Source: Eubacterium sp. 14-2 (GTDB lineage: Bacteria > Bacillota > Clostridia > Lachnospirales > Lachnospiraceae). Taken from it: a DNA stretch of 64,000 bases. The notes beneath the pieces were generated by a model. It saw only the letters and a program-made list of their open reading frames with translations. It had not been told where the DNA came from and did not search any database. The DNA lies in assembly GCF_000403845.2 (NCBI RefSeq), contig NZ_KE159568.1:248001-312000 (forward strand), given 5' to 3'. Shown here one piece after another: positions 29,318 through 40,572 of this stretch. The stretch's first letter is position 1. Every line of letters begins with the position of its first letter. Both the position numbers and the translations under genes were made by a program.

Positions 29318-29677
29318 TTATAATACGTTTTTGGTTGCGATAATATCTACGCCTGTGCCTGCCACGTCGCTTACAATCACATCCCCGATATGTACCGGCG
29401 CCTGAACTTTTACACCTTTCAGGTCTTTCATAATATCAAAGATTTTTCCTTTCGGAATATCTTCTTTGGTTTTTACAGATACTGCTGCAAGGCTTCCGCC
29501 TTCTACAATCACAGAACTTGTAACGATTCTGGTGGGATTGGTTACTTCTTTTCTGGCATAGTCATCACCGCGTTTGCAGGTATTGCCGGTAACGCTTACC
29601 ACTTCACCATTGTTCATTTCCACTTTTAACGGGCAGCCCATGGGGCATCCGATACAAATTAATTCTCTTGTTTCCAT
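29318..29677 (-). CDS. DUF1667 protein, small cysteine-rich partner of the glycerol-3-phosphate oxidoreductase
   Basis: The ATG at 29677 with GAGGAGG inside the end of the upstream gene gives 119 residues. The N-terminus has IGCPMGCPLKVEM and NTCKRGDDYARKE, a Cys pattern suited to an iron-sulfur or metal site. In Clostridia and Thermotogae this family is regularly encoded after two FAD oxidoreductases as here, and replaces the GlpC-like role; the electron path is inferred. It overlaps neither neighbour but is translationally coupled to the gene before it. Confidence 0.85.
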   Translation of the reverse strand: METRELICIGCPMGCPLKVEMNNGEVVSVTGNTCKRGDDYARKEVTNPTRIVTSSVIVEGGSLAAVSVKTKEDIPKGKIFDIMKDLKGVKVQAPVHIGDVIVSDVAGTGVDIIATKNVL

Positions 29678-29681
29678 AGTT

Positions 29682-30953
29682 TTACGCCTCCTCAATCTTT
29701 ACGGTAATCTGAGACAGATTTGAAAATGCTGCTAATTCTTCTTTTTTCAGTACAACTTCTTCCATCTCTCCAGGTGCTACAACCGGACGTTTTTTGTGAA
29801 TAATACGCTCATCATTCAGATATACGGATACATAGCAGTTCTTATATACATCGCCCACACGGAAACGCACCGTATGTTTCTCATCCATTCTATCCGGATT
29901 GATGGTCTTTGGTACGGTGTAACGTGCGCCTTCTACCGCAACAATCGGAATATCCTTTGCGCTGGTATCTTTATGTTTTGCTCCGTTCAGCACATATTCA
30001 GCCGCATGTTTTCCGGCAGCGGATGCTTCCTCGGAAACAAAGTCTACCAGGTCATGTACATGAAGTACATTACCGCATGCAAATACACCTTCCACATTGG
30101 TTTCCAGACATTCATTTACCAATGGTCCGGATGTAATCGGGCTCATTTCAACATTCAGACTTCTGGAAAGCTCATTTTCCGGAATCAATCCGCAGGATAA
30201 CAGCAGGGTATCGCAGGTGTAACGCTCTTCTGTTCCGGGAACCGGTCTTCTGTCCGGTCCTACTTCTGCGATGGTAATCGCTTCCACTCTTTCCTTACCT
30301 TCGATATCTACAACAGTATGGCTTAATTTCAGCGGAATTCCGTAGTCATCCAGACACTGTACAATATTTCTCTTCAATCCGCCGGAGTAAGGCATTAACT
30401 CAGCTACCACTTTAACTTTTGCACCTTCCAGTGTCATTCTTCTTGCCATAATCAGTCCGATATCACCGGAGCCGAGAATTACTACTTCACGTCCCGGCAT
30501 ATAGCCTTCCATGTTTACAAGACGCTGTGCAGTACCTGCAGAATAGATACCTGCCGGACGATATCCGGGAATGTTTAATGCGCCTCTGGAACGCTCTCTG
30601 CAGCCCATGGCAAGTACAATTGCTTTTGCCTGGATTTCAAACATACCATCTTCACGGTTCATGGCAGTTACAACCTTGTTGGGTGCAATATCCATAACCA
30701 TGGTATTTAATTTATATTCAATCTTTTCGTCTTTTAACTGATCAATAAATCTTCCTGCGTATTCCGGGCCTGTCAGCTCTTCTTTAAATGTATGAAGTCC
30801 GAATCCGTTATGGATACACTGATTCAGGATACCACCCAGTTCTTTATCTCTTTCCAGTACTAAAATAGATTCTACTCCATTTCTTTTTGCTGATACGGCT
30901 GCTGCAAGTCCTGCAGGGCCGCCTCCTACAATAACAATATCATAATTTAACAT
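29682..30953 (-). CDS. FAD-dependent pyridine nucleotide-disulfide oxidoreductase (GlpB-like position)
   Basis: A 423-residue flavoprotein. It has an N-terminal FAD site (IVGGGPAGLAAAVSAKRNG), LGGILNQCIHNGFG, LAMGCRERSRGALNIPG, a second nucleotide site VILGSGDIGLIMARRM, and the FAD ribityl block VEGVFACGNVLHVHDLVDFV. It belongs to the group found as middle gene of glycerol-3-phosphate dehydrogenase operons in anaerobes, with GlpA-like and DUF1667 partners, and may pass electrons to NAD or quinone/ferredoxin. It follows the GlpA-like gene by 26 bases. Confidence 0.88.
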   Translation of the reverse strand: MLNYDIVIVGGGPAGLAAAVSAKRNGVESILVLERDKELGGILNQCIHNGFGLHTFKEELTGPEYAGRFIDQLKDEKIEYKLNTMVMDIAPNKVVTAMNREDGMFEIQAKAIVLAMGCRERSRGALNIPGYRPAGIYSAGTAQRLVNMEGYMPGREVVILGSGDIGLIMARRMTLEGAKVKVVAELMPYSGGLKRNIVQCLDDYGIPLKLSHTVVDIEGKERVEAITIAEVGPDRRPVPGTEERYTCDTLLLSCGLIPENELSRSLNVEMSPITSGPLVNECLETNVEGVFACGNVLHVHDLVDFVSEEASAAGKHAAEYVLNGAKHKDTSAKDIPIVAVEGARYTVPKTINPDRMDEKHTVRFRVGDVYKNCYVSVYLNDERIIHKKRPVVAPGEMEEVVLKKEELAAFSNLSQITVKIEEA

Positions 30954-30979: not shown

Positions 30980-32416
30980 CTATATTCTGTCTTTATTAAT
31001 TCCTACAATAATCTTGGATTCTCCACCTGCTTTTGTAATTTCGGATGGGTCTACTCCGCGTTCTCTGGAAAGAATCTCGATGGTTCTCGGAGAACAGAAA
31101 CCTGCCTGGCAGCGTCCCATTCCGGCTCTGGTACGACGTTTTACACCGTCCAGGGATTTTGCGCCCAGAGGACGTTTGATTGCGTCGATAATTTCGCCTT
31201 CTGTAATCATCTCACATCTGCAGATAATATTTCCATATGCGGGATTTTCCTTAATCAGAGCCGCCCGTTCTTCATTGGTCAGGGTCTTGGGATCCAGGAT
31301 TCCTTTTCTGGTTCCGTTAAAGTCAGGATTCTCTTCTGCATTTGTCAGATCTTTGATAATATTTGCTACCATTTTTCCAATTGCCGGAGCACTGGTCAGT
31401 CCAGGAGACTCGATACCTGCACAGTCAATGAATCCTTTTGCTTCTTCCAGCTCGCCGATGTAGAACTCATGTCCGTCTTCATGTGCACGGAGTCCTGCAA
31501 ATGAGGTGATTACCTGACGGATCGGAAGACCTTTTACAGTAGTTCCTGCCTTGTTAATCAGTTCGTCAATACCTTCCTGTGTGGTATTGGTTCCTTCTCT
31601 GTTCTCAATATCAATTGCAGTAGGTCCTACTAAAGTATTGCCGTGAACGGTAGGAGATACCAGAACGCCTTTTCCATATTTACCTGGAAGCTGGAAAATA
31701 GTATGTGTTACAAATCCTTCGGTAGAGCGGTCTAACAGACAGTAATCTCCACGTCTCGGTGTGATATGTAATTTTTTGTCGCTTACCATGTTGTGGAATT
31801 TATCCGCATAAACACCTGCCGCATTAACAACGTATCTGGTTTCAATTTCACCCTGGCTGGTCTTAACTACCCAGTTGTCACCTTTTTTCTCCAGGTCAGT
31901 AACTTCTGTATCAAATTTGAACTCCACGCCGTTGGTTGCAGCATTTTCAGCAAATGCAATGTTCATTCCAAAGGGGCAGACAATTCCGCCGGTAGGTGCA
32001 TACAGTGCTGCTACTGCCTCGTCTGCAATATTGGGCTCTAACTTTACGAGTTCTTCTCTGTCAATAATGCGCAAATCTTTGACACCGTTCTCCACACCTC
32101 TGTCATACAGCGCCTGCAGATTGGGTTTTTCTTCCTCGTTAATACATACAACCAGAGAACCGTTATTCTTATAGTGGAAATCCAGTTCTTTGGAAAGAGC
32201 TTCCATCATCTGGTTACCTTCCACATTCAGCTTCGCCATAAGGGAACCTGCTTCTGCGTCAAATCCGGCATGTACAATTGCACTGTTTGCCTTGGATGTT
32301 CCACAGCATACGTCTTCTTCCTTTTCCACTACACAGACATTCAGTTTGTATCTGGAAAGTTCTCTTGCGGAAGCACTTCCTGATACGCCTGCTCCAATAA
32401 TTACTACATCATACAT
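30980..32416 (-). CDS. anaerobic glycerol-3-phosphate dehydrogenase-like flavoprotein (GlpA type)
   Basis: The ATG at 32416 with AGGTGA six bases away gives 478 residues; a GTG three codons upstream is the alternative. The N-terminal FAD site reads DVVIIGAGVSGSASARELS, followed by CCGTSKANSAIVHAGFDA, typical of the DAO/GlpA family. The C-terminal part (after about 395) is a BFD-like [2Fe-2S] domain: IICRCEMITEGEIIDAI and TRAGMGRCQAGFCSPRTIEIL. It should oxidise sn-glycerol 3-phosphate to dihydroxyacetone phosphate. It is preceded by a 230-base leader with promoter and terminator. Confidence 0.9.
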   Translation of the reverse strand: MYDVVIIGAGVSGSASARELSRYKLNVCVVEKEEDVCCGTSKANSAIVHAGFDAEAGSLMAKLNVEGNQMMEALSKELDFHYKNNGSLVVCINEEEKPNLQALYDRGVENGVKDLRIIDREELVKLEPNIADEAVAALYAPTGGIVCPFGMNIAFAENAATNGVEFKFDTEVTDLEKKGDNWVVKTSQGEIETRYVVNAAGVYADKFHNMVSDKKLHITPRRGDYCLLDRSTEGFVTHTIFQLPGKYGKGVLVSPTVHGNTLVGPTAIDIENREGTNTTQEGIDELINKAGTTVKGLPIRQVITSFAGLRAHEDGHEFYIGELEEAKGFIDCAGIESPGLTSAPAIGKMVANIIKDLTNAEENPDFNGTRKGILDPKTLTNEERAALIKENPAYGNIICRCEMITEGEIIDAIKRPLGAKSLDGVKRRTRAGMGRCQAGFCSPRTIEILSRERGVDPSEITKAGGESKIIVGINKDRI

Positions 32417-32529
32417 ATTGTTCACCTATCCTTTTCTCACTCTTTCTTATTTATTTTTTACTGCCATAAGCCGGAGGTTCAGGGCAGTTAATTTACATAT
32501 TTAAAATACAAACCAGTTTCTGATACAGG

Positions 32530-32627: not shown

Positions 32628-32656
32628 ATTATAACATTCGAGTCATTATTTTACCA
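32628..32656 (-). promoter_or_regulatory. predicted promoter of the glpA-like operon
   Basis: A perfect TATAAT -10 on the minus strand with a poor -35 (TGGTAA at 17 bases) that overlaps the glpF stop codon. A start near 32621 gives a leader of about 205 bases containing the terminator at 32530-32574. Confidence 0.4.
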
Positions 32657-33355
32657 TGGAATGATTCCATACAGACCAACTGCCAGCAGAGCGCCGATGA
32701 TCGGTCCAACTAATGTAACGATTCCATATCCCCAGTTAGAGCTTCCTTTTCCGCTGATCGGAAGGATTGTATGTGCCAGACGAGGTCCAAGGTCACGGGC
32801 CGGGTTCATAGCGTATCCTGTTAATCCACCAAAGGACATACCGCAGGAAACGATGATTCCGAATACTAACAGGTTACCTACACCAGCAGGAGCTTCTGCC
32901 GGAAGGCCTTTGATTGCAAATACCAGTACGAAAGTTGCAACTGCTTCTGCAAGAATGTTCATTGGAAGGTTCGGAATAGATGGTCCACAGGAGAATACAC
33001 CAAGTTTGGTTCCCGGATCATCCGTTGCATCGAACTGGCCTTTGAAAGCAATCCATACGATAATCGCGCCTACAAATGCACCTGCGAACTGTGCTACAAT
33101 ATAACCAGGCACCAGATCCCATGCAAAGCTGCCGTCTACTGCTAATGCCAGAGTTAAAGCGGGGTTGAAACTTGCGCCGGATGCAGCACCAAAAATGAAT
33201 GCCGGTATCATAACTGCAAGACCCCAGGCAATGGTAATCTGGATAGAGCCTGCGCCCTTCATTCCGGATTTGTTCAGAGTTACGTTAGCAACTACGCCAT
33301 CACCTAACATGATCAACATCATTGTTCCTACAAATTCTGCTATATATGGTAACAT
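32651..33355 (-). CDS. glpF: glycerol uptake facilitator (aquaglyceroporin)
   Basis: A 234-residue MIP-family channel with six hydrophobic segments. Both NPA boxes are present, SFNPALTLAL near 65 and AMNPARDLGP near 190; the Asp after NPAR is typical of glycerol facilitators rather than pure water channels. It starts MLPYIAEFVGTMMLIMLGDG. It follows glpK by 39 bases and so is probably transcribed from the glpK promoter, supplying glycerol to the kinase at the membrane. Confidence 0.96.
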   Translation of the reverse strand: MLPYIAEFVGTMMLIMLGDGVVANVTLNKSGMKGAGSIQITIAWGLAVMIPAFIFGAASGASFNPALTLALAVDGSFAWDLVPGYIVAQFAGAFVGAIIVWIAFKGQFDATDDPGTKLGVFSCGPSIPNLPMNILAEAVATFVLVFAIKGLPAEAPAGVGNLLVFGIIVSCGMSFGGLTGYAMNPARDLGPRLAHTILPISGKGSSNWGYGIVTLVGPIIGALLAVGLYGIIPW

Positions 33356-33394: not shown

Positions 33395-34969
<1,575 letters not shown>

Positions 34970-35605: not shown

Positions 35606-36172
35606 TTACATAAACCATATATCCTGGTTGGTGGTTGAAACTGAAATTGCCCCGGCATTCAGTGCATCAATTACATCTTCCCTGTCACTGATCAGTCCGC
35701 CGGCAATGACAGCCTGAGAACTAAGTTTATTGATCTTCCGTATAATTTTCGGCATGACTCCCGGCAGGATTTCAATAAAATCCGCCCGGATTTGTTTCTT
35801 CTGCTTTTCTATACTCTGATAAGCTCTGGAATCCAGTACGAAGATTCGATAAACCGTATACATGGACAACTCTTTTGCACGATTAATCATATTCATCCTG
35901 GTTGAAATAATTCCATCTGCTTCTGTGTTTTTTCTAATATAATCCACCGCAATCTCATGAGCACTGAGTCCTTCAATCAAATCCAGGTGCACCAGGGCTA
36001 TTTTTTCCGCCTGTTTCATTCGTGCCACAATTTCACCGATATTACACATATCTCCGAACAGAATAAATACGATTTTTACATCAGATTTCAAACACTTTTC
36101 AATTCCCTCAAAATTCTTCACCGCCGCAACAACGGGACTGTCCGTCATCGCATCATAAAATTTCTGTTCCAT
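35606..36172 (-). CDS. glpP: glycerol-3-phosphate-responsive antiterminator GlpP
   Basis: A 188-residue GlpP-family protein with the phosphate-barrel fold. Visible blocks are DSPVVAAVKNFEGIEKCL, VFILFGDMCNIGEIV, ALVHLDLIEGLS, FVLDSRAY and the C-terminal phosphate-binding region IIRKINKLSSQAVIAGGLISDREDVIDALNAGA. In Bacillus, GlpP with glycerol 3-phosphate prevents termination in glp leaders. Here leader terminators stand before the glpA-like gene and before glpP itself. A GGGAGG site precedes the ATG. The TetR gene follows at 15 bases. Confidence 0.94.
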   Translation of the reverse strand: MEQKFYDAMTDSPVVAAVKNFEGIEKCLKSDVKIVFILFGDMCNIGEIVARMKQAEKIALVHLDLIEGLSAHEIAVDYIRKNTEADGIISTRMNMINRAKELSMYTVYRIFVLDSRAYQSIEKQKKQIRADFIEILPGVMPKIIRKINKLSSQAVIAGGLISDREDVIDALNAGAISVSTTNQDIWFM

Positions 36173-36249
36173 AAGCCTCCCATACCAGTTTCAGCCAGTT
36201 CACGTTCCATTTTATGTACTGAACCTTCACCTCCTTAATTTTTTGAAAG

Positions 36250-36301
36250 AAAAAAAGAGTAAAGCTAATAAGCAACATTTCTGCTGTCATAACCTTACTC
36301 T
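36250..36301 (-). terminator. leader terminator ahead of glpP
   Basis: AGAGTAAGGTTA pairs with TAGCTTTACTCT (two G-U pairs), with an inner CAGCA-GAAA-TGTTG helix, then a run of seven T on the minus strand. It lies 78 bases before glpP and about 35 bases after a predicted transcription start. Confidence 0.75.
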
Positions 36302-36341
36302 CCACTCTCCAGGCATCTGTTTACTTCTATCTCGTGCTATT

Positions 36342-36370
36342 ATGTTAGCATTTTTAACGGAGAAATTCAA
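36342..36370 (-). promoter_or_regulatory. predicted promoter of glpP
   Basis: TTGAAT, 17 bases, TAACAT on the minus strand. A start near 36335 places the terminator at 36250-36301 inside the leader. Confidence 0.5.
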
Positions 36371-36448
36371 GCAAACTTTCGAAAAAAATAAAATTATGGC
36401 CAATACTGTCAAATTTTATTCTGACATTTTGGTTATTTTGTCCAATGG

Positions 36449-37126
36449 CTATTTCTGTTTTTTACACTTTTTCATTACCTGATACATTTCTTCTATGGTT
36501 TTTGTTCCCATCAGCACCTCACTGTCATTTACAATGGTCATGGGAATCCGTTCAATATGATATTTTTCTGCAAGCTCCGGATACAGTCTGGCGTCAATCA
36601 TCCTGGCCTCTGTCACTTCTGACTCGGAGGCTATTTTCTGACAGGTAATTACCTGCTGTGCACAATGATGACAGGAAAGAGATACAAATATTTTGATATC
36701 CACCCGTTCTTCCAGTTTCTGCAGCTTCTTCTGCATGCGTCCGTTAATCTCCTGTCCCGGACCTGCAGTATTGTAAATGCCGAACACCAGAGAATTCATC
36801 TCCTTGCCGCCGGTAACTCCATGGTATGCTACTCCTGTATACCTGTCATTTTTATAGAGCGCTGTAACAGGCAGCAGCGAAGCGTCCAGTTCAGGCAGTT
36901 CTTTTTCAGCCTCTTCCCGGTCATAAAAGCGGCAGGAAAGTTTATCCGACAATCCTGTCATGTGACGTACCAGTTCCGCCATTTCCACAGAAGCCTTTTC
37001 TTCCGGATTTATCACGCATACCATACATACTCCCCCTGTGAGTTTTCCCAGTACGGTATTCAGCTGGCCTTCCAGTTCTTCGGTGATAAGTTCGCTTCTG
37101 GGAGATATTTTTTCGATATTAATCAT
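36449..37126 (-). CDS. AhpF-like thioredoxin-fold disulfide reductase
   Basis: The ATG at 37126 with AGGAGGGG gives 225 residues, made of two thioredoxin folds as in the N-terminal domain of AhpF. The second fold has the active site FVSLSCHHC (Cys152, Cys155) and the cis-Pro region RIPMTIVND. The first fold contains CMVC at 34-37, whereas this fold in classical AhpF lacks a redox pair. The FAD/NADH part of AhpF is absent, so it would need an external reductase. It overlaps the end region of ahpC, whose product it probably reduces. Confidence 0.85.
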   Translation of the reverse strand: MINIEKISPRSELITEELEGQLNTVLGKLTGGVCMVCVINPEEKASVEMAELVRHMTGLSDKLSCRFYDREEAEKELPELDASLLPVTALYKNDRYTGVAYHGVTGGKEMNSLVFGIYNTAGPGQEINGRMQKKLQKLEERVDIKIFVSLSCHHCAQQVITCQKIASESEVTEARMIDARLYPELAEKYHIERIPMTIVNDSEVLMGTKTIEEMYQVMKKCKKQK

Positions 37127-37136
37127 TCCGCCCCTC

Positions 37137-37703
37137 CTACAGCATTCCAACCAGATCAAGGCTTGGGCTTAAGGTCTCCTCCCCCGGCTGCCATTTTGCC
37201 GGACATACCTGATCGCCATGTTCTTCCACAAATTTCGCTGCCCGCAGTTTACGAAGCAGCTCCTCTGCATTTCTCCCGATTCCCATATCGTGAATCTCAT
37301 ATGCTTTCACTTCTCCTCTGGGGTTCAGAATAAAGGTTCCTCTCAGGGCCTGTCCCAGTTCTTCCACCAGAACGCCAAACTGTTTCGCGAGAACACCTGC
37401 CGGATCTCCCAGCATCACATACTGAATCTTTTTGATGGTATCGGACGCATCCGCCCATGCTTTATGTACAAAATGGGTATCTTCTGATACGGAATAAATC
37501 TCACATCCCTCTTCTTTGAATTCCTCGTAATGGTCTGCCAGATCTCCCAGTTCCGTAGGACATACAAAGGTAAAATCAGCGGGATAGAAAAACAGTATGG
37601 ACCAGTGTCCTTTCAGATCTTCCTGTGTCACGTCCAGAAATTCCCCTTTGCAGAATGCGGATACCTGAAATTCCTCCACCTGTTTATTAATCATATTTTC
37701 CAT
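37137..37703 (-). CDS. ahpC: alkyl hydroperoxide reductase AhpC (typical 2-Cys peroxiredoxin)
   Basis: The ATG at 37703 with AAAGGAG gives 188 residues. The peroxidatic Cys is in FYPADFTFVCPTELGDL (Cys48) and the resolving Cys in HGDQVCPAKWQPGE near the C-terminus. Other blocks are VSEDTHFVHKAW and LGQALRGTFILNPRG. It reduces peroxides using the thioredoxin-fold partner encoded directly after it. It has a strong promoter and a short leader with a GTTGCA/TGCAAC hairpin. I saw no clear PerR box. Confidence 0.97.
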   Translation of the reverse strand: MENMINKQVEEFQVSAFCKGEFLDVTQEDLKGHWSILFFYPADFTFVCPTELGDLADHYEEFKEEGCEIYSVSEDTHFVHKAWADASDTIKKIQYVMLGDPAGVLAKQFGVLVEELGQALRGTFILNPRGEVKAYEIHDMGIGRNAEELLRKLRAAKFVEEHGDQVCPAKWQPGEETLSPSLDLVGML

Positions 37704-37790
37704 TATAAAACTCCTTTCTCTCATCCATCCGTTCATTTTATAAGCGTTCCTGTTGCATTGATACCTGCAACGGTAAACCACCTGCACTTT

Positions 37791-37819
37791 ATTATATCTT
37801 TGAAAATCCGTAAAAGCAA
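37791..37819 (-). promoter_or_regulatory. predicted promoter of ahpC
   Basis: TTGCTT, 17 bases, TATAAT on the minus strand, about 90 bases before ahpC. The rest of 37820-37934 shows nothing I recognise. Confidence 0.65.
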
Positions 37820-37934
37820 CTAATATTTTCTCAAATCGGAAATGAGCTTTCCGGAATATTGCTCTCTCCCCTCATACAGTTCATTTCAAGTGTCAAAAAA
37901 CCCTGTCTATTCCGTCATTTCCAACTTTTTTGCC

Positions 37935-37963
37935 TTGCAATCCCTGTCAATTAACGTTATAAT
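37935..37963 (+). promoter_or_regulatory. predicted promoter of the repeat-peptide gene
   Basis: TTGCAA, 17 bases, TATAAT on the plus strand, 55 bases before the ATG at 38019. Confidence 0.75.
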
Positions 37964-38018
37964 ACAGTCACAGATAAGACGCAATTACATTTTTTATATT
38001 CGGTTCAGGAGGGAAACT

Positions 38019-38216
38019 ATGGAGAAAGAAAACTTAAATATTTCTAACATGAACGGTGTGACTTCAGATGACGATACCACCTGCAGTATTACAGACATGA
38101 ACTGCAACGGCAACAACGATGACACTACCTGCAGCATCACAGATATGAACTGTAACAGCGACAAAGACGATACCACCTGCAGTATTACAGATATGAACTG
38201 CAACGGGGACAACTAA
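38019..38216 (+). CDS. 65-residue peptide with three 16-residue Cys repeats, RiPP-precursor-like
   Basis: The ATG at 38019 follows AGGAGGGAAACT and gives 65 residues. A 17-residue start (MEKENLNISNMNGVTSD) is followed by three near-identical units at 18-33, 34-49 and 50-65, each DDTTCSITDMNCN plus three variable residues. Every unit has two Cys (22/29, 38/45, 54/61) and a CSITD, that is CX3D, motif. NISNMNG in the start looks like a worn unit. It has a strong promoter and its own terminator. Short leader plus repeated Cys cores suggests a ribosomally made, modified peptide; CX3D is the crosslink pattern of radical-SAM thioether peptides such as freyrasin. No maturase, protease or exporter is adjacent, so a metal-binding or secreted role is also possible. 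I do not recognise the family. Confidence 0.75.
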   Translation: MEKENLNISNMNGVTSDDDTTCSITDMNCNGNNDDTTCSITDMNCNSDKDDTTCSITDMNCNGDN

Positions 38217-38315
38217 TCAACCGTCGTTGCATACTTTTTGTTAATGCGGCAGGATTTCCATATGGAAGAAAATGACTGACTGCTGCATTATGAATGAATT
38301 TGCCCACTCTCTTTT

Positions 38316-38353
38316 AGACCAGGGTTCTGTTTCGGCAGAACTTCTGGTCTTTT
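38316..38353 (+). terminator. intrinsic terminator after the repeat-peptide gene
   Basis: AGACCAG-g-GTTCTG pairs with CAGAAC-tt-CTGGTCT, then TTTTCC on the plus strand. It limits the upstream transcript to the peptide gene and a 100-base tail that holds a further AATGC-GCAG / CTGC-GCATT helix. Confidence 0.75.
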
Positions 38354-38456
38354 CCATATCCGGTATTCCTTTCAGACCCAAAGGCCTCTCTGAGGTTATC
38401 CGGATATATCAAATATACCGGGAATCCAAAGGTTCCCGAAAGAAAGGAACACTGCC

Positions 38457-38717
38457 ATGCGTATCTGGTTTAAATTATTCAGGGATAACCGTCTGCTCCG
38501 GGATACGGTGATTACAGACGATAGCAGCGATACCCGTACCCACAAAATTTTTCATGCACTGGAACAGGTCTGCTATGAGTTTGACCTGAGCCAGCCAATC
38601 TGGCTGGACTCCACCATATCCGAATTCAAACGCCAGGGCAAAGCCCGCTTTTATCAGGATAATTTTCTGGAAGAAATTTCATTTGATTTTCTGGAAATCC
38701 ATGTGATTGAAGAATAA
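38457..38717 (+). CDS. small hypothetical protein (86 residues)
   Basis: The ATG is preceded by AAAGGAACACTGCC. The 86-residue product begins MRIWFKLFRDNRLLRDTVI and is rich in charged and aromatic residues (HALEQVCYEFDLSQPIWLDST, RFYQDNFLEEISFDFLEIHVIEE). No signal peptide, membrane segment or motif is seen; it is probably a small soluble protein. I believe similar proteins occur in other Lachnospiraceae, but I cannot give a function. It is separated from the repeat-peptide gene by a terminator and followed by a hairpin shared with the convergent methyltransferase gene. Confidence 0.7.
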   Translation: MRIWFKLFRDNRLLRDTVITDDSSDTRTHKIFHALEQVCYEFDLSQPIWLDSTISEFKRQGKARFYQDNFLEEISFDFLEIHVIEE

Positions 38718-38737
38718 GCCGGACTGCCAGAGAAAAT

Positions 38738-38779
38738 GCTTTTACCTTCTGTCACCTGTCCAGCAGAGAAGATAAAAGC
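38738..38779. terminator. hairpin between convergent genes
   Basis: GCTTTTA-(U/G)-CTTCT pairs with AGAAG-GTAAAAGC around a 14-base loop. The minus strand continues ATTTTCTC. It probably terminates both the 86-residue gene and the methyltransferase gene. Confidence 0.55.
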
Positions 38780-38804
38780 CAGATGATGTGGAACCACGTT
38801 GTTT

Positions 38805-39581
38805 TTACTTTCTCTGCCGGCTGACTTCATACATCAGCAGCGCTGCGGCCACTGCCGCATTCAGGGATTCTGTCCGTCCTTCCATGGGAATCCGAATCCG
38901 AATATCTGCCAGTTCTGCAATCTCAGGACTTAATCCATTTCCCTCATTTCCAATCAAAAACCCTGTATGTCCCCTGTAATCCGGTTCTTCGTAGGATACG
39001 GCCCCTTCCAGATGGGCTCCGTACAGGGTAACTCCTCTCTGTTTCAGGTCCCGGAGTGTTTCGGGCAGATCCGGAGTAATGTAAAAGGGCACCCGGTACA
39101 AAGCTCCCATGGTGGCGCGGATGGTTTTGGGATGGAACAGGTCCACGGTAGTCTGATTCATGACAATTCCTGTAATTCCCGCAGCTTCCCCGGTGCGTAT
39201 CATGGTACCCAGGTTTCCTGGATCCTGAATGGTATCAAGGATTAACAGATGTCCCTTCCTGTCTTTCCCCAGCAAATCATTCAGACTGTACTCCGGCATT
39301 TTTATCACACACAGAATCCCCTGGGGGGTTTTGGTATCACTGACAGCCTGAAATACCCGGTCTGACACCACTTCATAATCATATCCCTGAATCTTCCGGC
39401 ACTTTTCCGAATCCTCCAGAAAAGACTCGGAGACATACATGGCCTCAATGGATTCTCCGGGGGCTTCCAGACACATTTTCATTCCTTCCGCCACAAAAAC
39501 CCGCTGTTCATAGCGGGTTTTTGACTTTTTATTCAACTGTAAGATCTGTTTCATCTGTCTGTTTCCGGAACTTGTAATCAT
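38805..39581 (-). CDS. TrmH/SpoU-family RNA 2'-O-methyltransferase
   Basis: The ATG at 39581 with GGAGCGCAT gives 258 residues. The N-terminal part (about 1-100) is the RNA-binding domain of the RlmB/TsnR-like group; the SPOUT domain follows with motif 1 LILDTIQDPGNLGTMIRTGEAAG, motif 2 LIGNEGNGLSPEI and motif 3 IPMEGRTESLNAAVAAALLMYE forming the SAM-binding knot. The target, rRNA or tRNA, is not determined by these motifs. It begins 17 bases after the pfkA stop, so it is probably transcribed with pfkA. Confidence 0.92.
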   Translation of the reverse strand: MITSSGNRQMKQILQLNKKSKTRYEQRVFVAEGMKMCLEAPGESIEAMYVSESFLEDSEKCRKIQGYDYEVVSDRVFQAVSDTKTPQGILCVIKMPEYSLNDLLGKDRKGHLLILDTIQDPGNLGTMIRTGEAAGITGIVMNQTTVDLFHPKTIRATMGALYRVPFYITPDLPETLRDLKQRGVTLYGAHLEGAVSYEEPDYRGHTGFLIGNEGNGLSPEIAELADIRIRIPMEGRTESLNAAVAAALLMYEVSRQRK

Positions 39582-39597
39582 ATGCGCTCCAATTCTT

Positions 39598-40572
39598 CTA
39601 AACACTCAGATTTCTGCAGACTTCAAACTGATATTCCGGAAGCTGTTTCTCCATGGCCAGCGCTTCGTCAATATCAAAGTCCACAAAATCACCGTGACGG
39701 TATCCCACCACCCGGTTGGATTTTCCTTCACAGAGTAAATCCACCGCATAGGCTCCCATGGTGGATGCATAAACACGGTCTTTACAGGTAGGGCTTCCGC
39801 CGCGCTGCATGTGGCCCAGAATGGTTGCTCTTGTCTCAAGGCCGGTAGCTGCCTCGATTCTCTTTGCCATGCTTGCGGAATGTCCGATTCCCTCTGCATT
39901 TATAATAATGTGATGTTTCTTTCCCCGTTTCCGGTTGGCAATAATATTATTTACCAGTTTCTGCTCGTCATAATCATATTTTTCCGGCAGGAGGATATCC
40001 TCCGCACCGTTGGCGATGCCGCACCAGAGTGCAATATAGCCTGCTCCGCGTCCCATAACTTCTATGATAGAGCAGCGCTCATGGGAAGTGGATGTATCAC
40101 GTACCTTGTCAATGGCATCCATGGCTGTATTCACTGCTGTGTCAAATCCAATGGTGTATTCCGTACATGCAATGTCCAAATCAATGGTTCCGGGAATTGC
40201 CACGGTATTAATTCCAAGAGCAGCCAGTTTCTGAGCTCCCTTAAAGGAACCGTCGCCGCCAATTACAATAACTCCGTCAATTTCGTGCCTGCGGCACATT
40301 TCCGCACCCAGCGCCTGTCCCTCCGGAGTCCTAAATTCGCTGCACCTTGCAGTCTGCAGAATAGTACCGCCCCGCTGAATCGTATCTGAAACGCCTTTTG
40401 CTTCCATATCCACAATTTCACCCTGAAGCAGCCCGGCATATCCTCGTTTAATTCCCTTTACTTTTCTGCCCCGTGCAAGGCCCTGACGCACTACCGCACG
40501 GATTGCAGCATTCATACCCGGCGCATCACCGCCGCTGGTAAGCACGCCAATTGTCTGAACTTCTTTTGCCAT
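39598..40572 (-). CDS. pfkA: ATP-dependent 6-phosphofructokinase
   Basis: A 324-residue PfkA. Blocks are IGVLTSGGDAPGMNAAIRAVVR, VIGGDGSFKGA (GGDGS, typical of ATP rather than PPi as donor), EVMGRGAGYIALW and HMQRGGSPTCKDR. The catalytic loop reads PGTIDLDI where most bacterial enzymes have TIDND; both Asp residues remain and only the middle Asn is Leu. It converts fructose 6-phosphate to the 1,6-bisphosphate. It lies 47 bases after dnaE, the dnaE-pfkA order known in many Firmicutes. Confidence 0.97.
   Translation of the reverse strand: MAKEVQTIGVLTSGGDAPGMNAAIRAVVRQGLARGRKVKGIKRGYAGLLQGEIVDMEAKGVSDTIQRGGTILQTARCSEFRTPEGQALGAEMCRRHEIDGVIVIGGDGSFKGAQKLAALGINTVAIPGTIDLDIACTEYTIGFDTAVNTAMDAIDKVRDTSTSHERCSIIEVMGRGAGYIALWCGIANGAEDILLPEKYDYDEQKLVNNIIANRKRGKKHHIIINAEGIGHSASMAKRIEAATGLETRATILGHMQRGGSPTCKDRVYASTMGAYAVDLLCEGKSNRVVGYRHGDFVDFDIDEALAMEKQLPEYQFEVCRNLSV

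Follow-up and report, generated by a model that had tools for sequence, protein, structure and literature searches.

A 65-codon open reading frame (ORF) of Eubacterium sp. 14-2 is a real, conserved small-protein gene with expression signals, and the peptide that it encodes is probably a redox-responsive partner of peroxide-defense and glycerol genes rather than the precursor of a natural product. The gene lies in the 64,000-nucleotide stretch of DNA analyzed here (the window), and its translation is MEKENLNISNMNGVTSDDDTTCSITDMNCNGNNDDTTCSITDMNCNSDKDDTTCSITDMNCNGDN. The family to which it belongs, found in gut Clostridia, consists of acidic peptides with four core units of the form X-[GSAD..]-[LIFW..]-x-[DN]-M-N-X, in which a Cys pair occupies the two X positions of units 2 and 4 and usually of unit 3. 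No known family matches these peptides, and the window peptide is the founding member of an unnamed family. The features discussed below are listed in Table 1.

Table 1. Features of the peptide gene, its neighbors in the window, and two distant relatives (window positions unless a locus is named)
Feature	Position	Strand	Evidence or remark
Peptide gene	38019..38216	+	65 aa; four 8-residue core units about 16 residues apart
Promoter-like TTGCAA-17-TATAAT	37935..37963	+	10/12 match
Ribosome-binding site AGGAGG	38007..38012	+	Six bases 5' of ATG, read from sequence
Unit 1, LNISNMNG	38034..38057	+	Cys in 0/58; position 5 is N in 58/58; unit present in 58/58
Unit 2, CSITDMNC	38082..38105	+	Both Cys in 58/58
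Unit 3, CSITDMNC	38130..38153	+	Both Cys in 44/58, neither in 14/58
Unit 4, CSITDMNC	38178..38201	+	Both Cys in 57/57 peptides having unit 4
Terminator hairpin and T run	38317..38353	+	Hairpin 38317-38349, then TTTT; -20.8 kcal/mol, z -4.7
ahpC (peroxiredoxin), divergent neighbor	37137..37703	-	TIGR03137 AhpC, 295 bits, over cutoff; PF00578
Stand-alone thioredoxin (Trx) piece of AhpF homolog (CHHC), without flavin domain	36449..37126	-	TIGR03143 positions 341-554 of 555; PF13192
glpP, glycerol-3-phosphate responsive antiterminator	35606..36172	-	PF04309
glpK, glycerol kinase	33395..34963	-	Presumed name, from sequence
glpF-like aquaglyceroporin	32651..33355	-	Presumed name, from sequence
FAD-dependent glycerol-3-phosphate oxidizing enzyme	30980..32425	-	NF033460, 330.9 bits (cutoff 460); PF01266, PF04324
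Pyridine nucleotide/FAD oxidoreductase of glp cluster	29682..30953	-	Family search
Small protein of glp cluster	29318..29695	-	Presumed DUF1667; no NCBIfam match
G322 relative without Cys pair	L106 8539-8736		Between PF01758 transporter and ArsD (PF06953)
G774 relative, Cys-less, free-standing gene	L124 9463-9657		Another family of the class; WRNLNG, SLTNMNG, and DINNMNG units

Conservation and expression signals of the peptide gene

We consider the ORF to be a real gene because 57 homologous loci were found among 84,980 species genomes, its pN/pS is low (0.02 to 0.23 in 16 same-length pairs chosen among close relatives), the sequence of its -10 box, TATAATA, is invariant across 12 aligned homologous intergenic regions, and a terminator hairpin follows it. 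All 57 homologous loci have a purine-rich site (GGAG, AGGA, or GAGG) no more than 20 nt from the start. The 65-residue frame, its three near-identical 16-residue units with two Cys and C-S-I-T-D each, the AGGAGG site, and the terminator had been described in the initial annotation, and our analysis confirmed each of them. The promoter had also been called strong. A promoter scan found 3 sites when 2.9 were expected, and the window site alone is not significant, but the -10 box is invariant in the aligned regions. Three 48-nt tandem copies, starting at 38070, 38118, and 38166, each encode one CSITDMNC unit; the second and third are 79% and 94% identical to the first. Between ahpC and the peptide gene, a TGTCAAAAA box (window 37891 to 37899) is kept in 9 of the 12 aligned regions and is a possible operator of some regulator. 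An RNA element was rejected, the sole match in an Rfam scan of positions 36000 to 40000 being below threshold and away from the gene.

The existence of homologs had been proposed as a check on the first reading of the gene, and relatives do exist, in 10 other genomes of the genus (E values of 5.8e-33 to 1.1e-16) and at the 57 loci. The samples overlap: at least 9 of the 57 loci are genus genome records, L041 is G253, and L049 is G332. Records carrying the loci bear the labels Lachnospiraceae, Mediterraneibacter, Lacrimispora, [Clostridium] citroniae, Roseburia, Petralouisia, Clostridiaceae, and others; three are labeled Oscillospiraceae and one Candidatus Faecousia. Lacrimispora celerecrescens is among the carriers (L050). 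Because the locus-search patterns accept only sequences with TC or DTTC in one or more units, these loci are biased toward Cys-bearing members. In a family-wide sample of 397 genomes from 334 genera, the peptide was present in 5 genomes, and its distribution is therefore patchy. A class-wide sample of 391 genomes gave weak matches at an E value of 0.1 or less in 9 genomes, of which only the window genome (G000) and a weak relative in G774 were credible and retained. The other seven were dropped (E values of 0.046 to 0.079; L118 to L120 were inspected among L117 to L123), as were five weak matches from other families of the order in the relatives search (E values of 0.2 to 0.6), an extra match in G024 (E value of 0.66), and, within the genus, a second weak match in G002 (E value of 0.2) and a match of 9 residues at a contig start in G005 (E value of 0.99).

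None of the 58 members matched an NCBIfam model. Pfam searches of the same 58 at an E value of 0.01 returned only isolated matches, to PF09869 in one peptide and to PF08115 (Toxin_28, the spider SFI toxins) in three. The likeness to PF08115 is weak, extending over 14 residues with a best E value of 0.0003, and its score of 20.9 is below the gathering threshold of 25; we rejected membership and read the match as a chance result of local Cys spacing. A PDB search gave one unconvincing match, at an E value of 0.72, which was not CP12. The repeat strings CGLNDMNC, CSITDMNC, TCGLNDMN, and GLNDMNC were not found in the papers searched, and the gene was absent from the titles and abstract openings of the matches listed in literature searches on AhpC, AhpF, and glycerol, on Enterococcus AhpF, on microbiome small proteins, on Cp34/Cp9, and on glycerol-3-phosphate oxidase.

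Cysteines occur in pairs within repeated units

Units were counted in the 58 peptides with the pattern X1-[GSADETNQ]-[LIFWYVM]-[NTSDQAGE]-[DNS]-[MTLQ]-N-X8. Four units were present in 57 peptides and three in the shortened peptide of L081; the L075 peptide has one further Cys unit outside the counting pattern. The first Cys of the peptides is preceded by 19 to 25 residues, and a copy of the repeat lies within them. What had been described as a 17-residue start followed by three units hides a fourth, Cys-less unit at residues 6 to 13, which is present in all 58 peptides.

Within each unit, the two Cys are equally conserved and change together. Because not one of the 231 counted units has a single Cys, the cysteines appear to work as CX6C pairs, and this pairing was not built into the sample, since neither locus-search pattern demanded the second Cys. 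On an AhpC tree of 40 rows, the state of the unit 3 pair changed at least three times, at least two of these changes being forced by well-supported branches, with gain and loss indistinguishable on this tree. The Asp of the CX3D spacing is less constant; of 159 Cys units, 16 have Asn in its place. Acidic residues are in excess, by a mean of 11.5 per 65 residues over the 58 members, and AlphaFold on the 58 sequences gave no structure (pLDDT 59.6, pTM 0.17), the result being too poor for a fold search. The poor prediction and the acidic excess are as expected of a disordered peptide.

The peptide gene recurs beside peroxide-defense and glycerol genes

Reading outward from the peptide gene, the window contains the divergent ahpC, the Trx-like gene, glpP, a gene that we take to be TetR-like, glpK, the glpF-like gene, the glycerol-3-phosphate enzyme, the FAD/NAD oxidoreductase, and the DUF1667-like gene; the names glpK, glpF, and DUF1667 are likewise our assumptions from the sequences. 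At other loci (e.g., L048, L051, L055, and L076), the order is ahpC, trx, glpP, glpK, glpF, glpA, FAD oxidoreductase, DUF1667, and peptide, and loci of this type often have genes after the peptide that we presume to encode dihydroxyacetone kinase. AhpC or Trx was seen at 46 of the 57 loci, glp genes at 42, and at least one of the two modules at 53. AhpC/Trx occurred without glp at 11 loci and glp without AhpC/Trx at 7, in examined flanks that vary, extending up to 8 kb with some contigs ending sooner. In three of the four loci having neither module (L049, L070, and L077), the sequence begins under 1 kb ahead of the peptide, which leaves L081 as the genuine exception. Neighboring ORFs were taken by a longest-ORF heuristic and were named by Pfam or NCBIfam for selected proteins only, otherwise by clustering with these or, presumptively, from their sequence. 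An 86-residue ORF at window positions 38457 to 38717, with no Pfam match, is conserved beside the peptide in the window, L030, L052, and L056.

This neighborhood bears on two statements of the initial annotation. The gene had been called an orphan, which does not hold insofar as its neighbors recur at 53 of 57 loci. It had also been placed back to back with ahpC and a partner gene, which is confirmed, the partner being the Trx piece of an AhpF homolog without the flavin part. The window AhpC scores over its model cutoff, as a member of an AhpC/AhpF reductase would, and the Trx piece corresponds to the C-terminal 214 positions of the AhpF homolog (TIGR03143). It scores 192 bits against a cutoff of 688, and the FAD/NAD(P)H domain is absent; by comparison, the AhpF-type protein of G218 matches the whole model over the cutoff. 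The locus therefore differs from the known reductase in that the flavin/NAD(P)H half of AhpF is missing beside the window peptide and the peptide is an extra component without a known counterpart. The nearest solved chains to the Trx piece are 5h29 and 6il7. Its motif could be read in 44 of 45 rows (the window and loci; one row does not reach it), as CHHC in 39, CHYC in 3, and CQHC in 2. Fused or broken AhpF proteins have CTMC, CHFC, or CGMC, and the stand-alone Trx of G067 has CAFC.

The glycerol-3-phosphate enzyme is closest to type 2 glycerol-3-phosphate oxidase, below the cutoff, and carries a BFD [2Fe-2S] domain. Lying beside ahpC, it is a possible source of peroxide. Peroxide production, which would be expected of such an oxidase, is a guess, because its score is well under the cutoff.

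The peptide is distributed with AhpC and a stand-alone thioredoxin

Among 29 genomes of the genus, AhpC (E value of 1e-40) is found in 11, exactly those with the intact peptide (Fisher P = 3e-8, kinship ignored). This identical distribution, together with AhpC or Trx nearby at 46 of 57 loci, supports the redox link at which the initial annotation had hinted. In the family sample, AhpC (E value of 1e-50) is found in 75 of 397 genomes, and the four genomes with a Cys-type peptide hold the four AhpC proteins nearest to that of the window (100, 75, 74, and 74% identity; Fisher P = 0.001, kinship ignored). The next five in rank (G185, G218, G236, G080, and G278) lack the peptide and have AhpC followed by a full-length AhpF of 535 to 566 residues. 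The Trx query matched 66 of the 397 genomes, with short frames in seven: four with the peptide, G067 with a true stand-alone Trx and no peptide, and G256 and G269 with a broken and a split AhpF. The peptide is thus present in 4 of 5 genomes with a stand-alone Trx versus 0 of 61 other Trx-domain genomes (Fisher P = 7e-6, kinship ignored). AhpF was counted as fused when its open frame had at least 486 residues (59 genomes, five of which were opened). The Fisher tests share genomes, the sets overlap, and phylogeny is uncorrected; physical linkage and common descent account for part of the co-occurrence.

There are also counterexamples. In the genomes of L054 and L075, the peptide lies beside glp genes only, and an AhpC is encoded elsewhere together with a fused AhpF of full length; the stand-alone Trx may therefore be dispensable. 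L069 combines the peptide with a stand-alone Trx, but its AhpC sits on a long branch among those of the fused type; the remaining 39 AhpC proteins linked to the peptide all fall on one side of a supported branch. At L081, the genome with the shortened peptide has no AhpC match at an E value of 1e-20. Neither the stand-alone Trx nor the glp cluster is therefore always present, although one or the other is found at 53 of 57 loci.

The missing reductase half could mean that the peptide is an electron relay, passing reducing equivalents from a flavoprotein (thioredoxin reductase or the glp flavoenzymes) to an AhpF-type Trx that lacks its own flavin reductase. Both the truncation of the Trx to positions 341 to 554 of the 555-position AhpF homolog family and the presence of the peptide in 4 of 5 stand-alone-Trx genomes but 0 of 61 others would fit. 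We nevertheless regard a relay as improbable, given that a thioredoxin reductase scoring over the curated cutoff, present in 22 of the 29 genus genomes and 9 of the 11 with the peptide, could serve the Trx directly, that the peptide also occurs with fused AhpF, and that G067 has the stand-alone Trx alone.

Two distant relatives lack Cys pairs

The relative in G322, a genome of the same family, contains MTEKLSINNMNG...YGLNNMNG...YRLNNING...YSIDNMCG, that is, four units with one Cys in all. Its gene sits in an operon with genes that we take to be ArsR-, ArsA-, and ArsC-like, next to arsD; by context, we read the adjacent PF01758 transporter as an arsenite permease. The ArsD protein matches the thioredoxin model PF13192 weakly, below the cutoff. 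The free-standing G774 gene has promoter-like and terminator-like sequences when read by eye. Neither genome has an AhpC match at an E value of 1e-20. Though two genomes are few, they point to the N-M-N core as the older element and to Cys pairs as companions of the AhpC/Glp context. A DNA pattern yielded one further Cys-less candidate in 226 genomes of the order, a low-complexity Asn-Met-Gly stretch that we judged to be a nonmember. A mobile or phage gene was rejected as well: the G322 relative had no match in plasmids or phages, and in viral contigs searched with alignment A3 no relative was found, none of 18 pattern matches being confirmed.

The peptide could instead be a docking or scaffold peptide, in which the [LI]xxMN cores are short linear motifs binding several copies of one partner and the Cys pairs are secondary or serve only as structural disulfides that stiffen the loop. 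Unit 1 lacks Cys in all 58 peptides yet is always present, unit 3 keeps its core in the 14 peptides in which it lacks Cys, and both distant relatives, one in an ars operon and one free-standing, have repeats without Cys pairs. Units 2 and 4, on the other hand, keep both Cys in 115 of 115 cases, and the reducing cytoplasm disfavors structural disulfides. We consider docking alone unlikely, though worth keeping in view.

The same relatives count against a small metal-binding peptide, metallothionein-like or acting as an iron or zinc buffer through its Cys pairs and acidic residues. With six Cys and many Asp in 65 residues, the window peptide has a suitable composition, and the paired presence and absence of Cys would fit bidentate binding. 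Metallothioneins are marked by clustered CXC or CXXC thiols, however, and the window peptide has only CX6C spacing; a Cys-less unit and Cys-less members exist; the arsenic operon relative is among those without Cys pairs; and no metal transporter was recognized among the named neighbor clusters (minor clusters, of up to 10 loci, are partly unnamed). Metal binding accordingly seems to us a doubtful reading.

A thioether precursor is an unlikely reading

The initial annotation had proposed that the CX3D units mark a precursor of a radical S-adenosylmethionine (radical-SAM) thioether peptide of the freyrasin/PapA type, a multicore precursor that would have to mature in trans. Passages of PMC9413430 describe PapB as joining Cys to Asp or Glu, and as thought to recognize the leader through an RRE domain. 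The window copy resembles freyrasin/PapA precursors in its tandem CX3D units, five SPASM radical-SAM genes lie elsewhere in the window genome (G000), and a short leader is conceivable in the 19 to 25 residues ahead of the first Cys. Those residues, however, include a repeat copy. In ranthipeptides, whose thioether crosslinks each lower the mass by 2 Da, every crosslinked unit has Cys-X3-Asp/Glu and a radical-SAM/SPASM maturase is encoded with the precursor; here, Asn stands in 16 of 159 Cys units, it is the CX6C pair rather than CX3D that is conserved, the second Cys as strictly as the first, and no maturase was recognized in the neighborhood, as the initial annotation had itself observed.

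A radical-SAM-like CX3CX2C motif (with an aromatic residue, His, or Leu before the last Cys) occurred in none of 534 neighbor ORFs longer than 200 residues and, with ORFs of all lengths counted, in 1 of 875, a 90-residue ORF at L059; a looser CX3CX2C occurred in 3 of the 875, none radical-SAM-like by eye. SPASM genes are present in 28 of the 29 genomes of the genus, independently of the peptide, and 1 of the 11 peptide-bearing genus genomes (G024, at 10 kb) has one within 20 kb on the same contig, several of these contigs ending within a few kilobases of the gene. No recurrent protease was recognized among the neighbors, and ABC-type ATPases (cluster 13) appear at 8 loci in varying places. Because of the Asp-to-Asn replacements, the lack of a radical-SAM motif in the neighbors, and the two relatives without Cys pairs, we find the thioether proposal unsupported and very unlikely to be correct. 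With no invariant Asp, no neighboring maturase, and SPASM genes independent of the peptide, it was rejected as the main reading.

A proposed thiol switch model

We tentatively propose, in the knowledge that this may well be wrong, that the peptide is a disordered adaptor, a thiol switch that connects AhpC/AhpF with the oxidation of glycerol-3-phosphate. It would remain in the cytoplasm as a disordered multisite switch. Peroxide, probably via AhpC, would close CX6C disulfides within units, and the AhpF-type thioredoxin, or thioredoxin, would reopen them. Closed and open units would alter the docking of the [LI]xxMN core on a partner in the AhpC/Glp module, and peroxide load would thereby be matched to glycerol-3-phosphate oxidation. 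We favor a thiol switch because Cys occurs only in pairs and the unit 3 pair switches state, because AhpC/Trx and/or glp genes lie at 53 of 57 loci and the peptide and AhpC share the same 11 of 29 genus genomes, and because no AhpC match was found in the genomes of the two relatives that lack Cys pairs. The stand-alone Trx of G067 without the peptide, the fused AhpF of L054 and L075, and the lack of both modules at L081 argue against it. More speculatively, and with little expectation that every part is right, the family could represent a new class of redox-switched multivalent linker peptides with four near-identical docking cores, whose CX6C pairs peroxide would write and a detached AhpF thioredoxin would erase, so that peroxide defense is tied to glycerol catabolism in gut anaerobes; relatives without Cys pairs would then dock on other partners, one of them being encoded between a PF01758 transporter and arsD.

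A comparable system is CP12, a photosynthetic redox-switch protein that passages in PMC3906501, PMC8151241, and PMC9406205 describe as small, rich in charged residues, (conditionally) disordered, and equipped with four redox Cys, acting in thioredoxin-mediated control of sugar-phosphate enzymes. As CP12 is characterized there, the peptide would resemble it in size, charge, disorder, and redox Cys, of which the Cys pairing and the lack of a predicted structure are seen in the peptide. The organisms and enzymes are different, and no CP12 family was among the Pfam and NCBIfam matches of the 58 members. To our knowledge, CP12 has no four-fold repeat. Because the Pfam, NCBIfam, and PDB searches found no homology, we suggest only hypothetically that the peptide works like CP12.

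If the thiol switch model is correct, one group of anaerobic gut bacteria has divided its AhpF reductase in two and gained a tiny repeat peptide, unnamed in the libraries searched. The peptide would then be a compact example of a disordered thiol switch outside photosynthesis and might connect glycerol use to oxygen tolerance in the gut. Even with a wrong mechanism, the family (58 sequences with strict Cys pairing and a recurrent neighborhood) is a clear target among the uncharacterized small proteins of the microbiome.

Signs of transfer and rearrangement at individual loci

The AhpC proteins of the Oscillospiraceae and Faecousia loci (L067, L071, L073, and L077) group, on a long branch, within the clade formed by those of the window genus. 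Judged by this placement, horizontal transfer is possible. A second copy of the peptide start and promoter was observed in G014 (L017 1501 to 1587), where about 19 homologous residues are followed by an ORF that we take to be transposase-like. The intact copy of the same genome (L006) lies 2.4 kb downstream of the partial one, an arrangement as after a local duplication and insertion.
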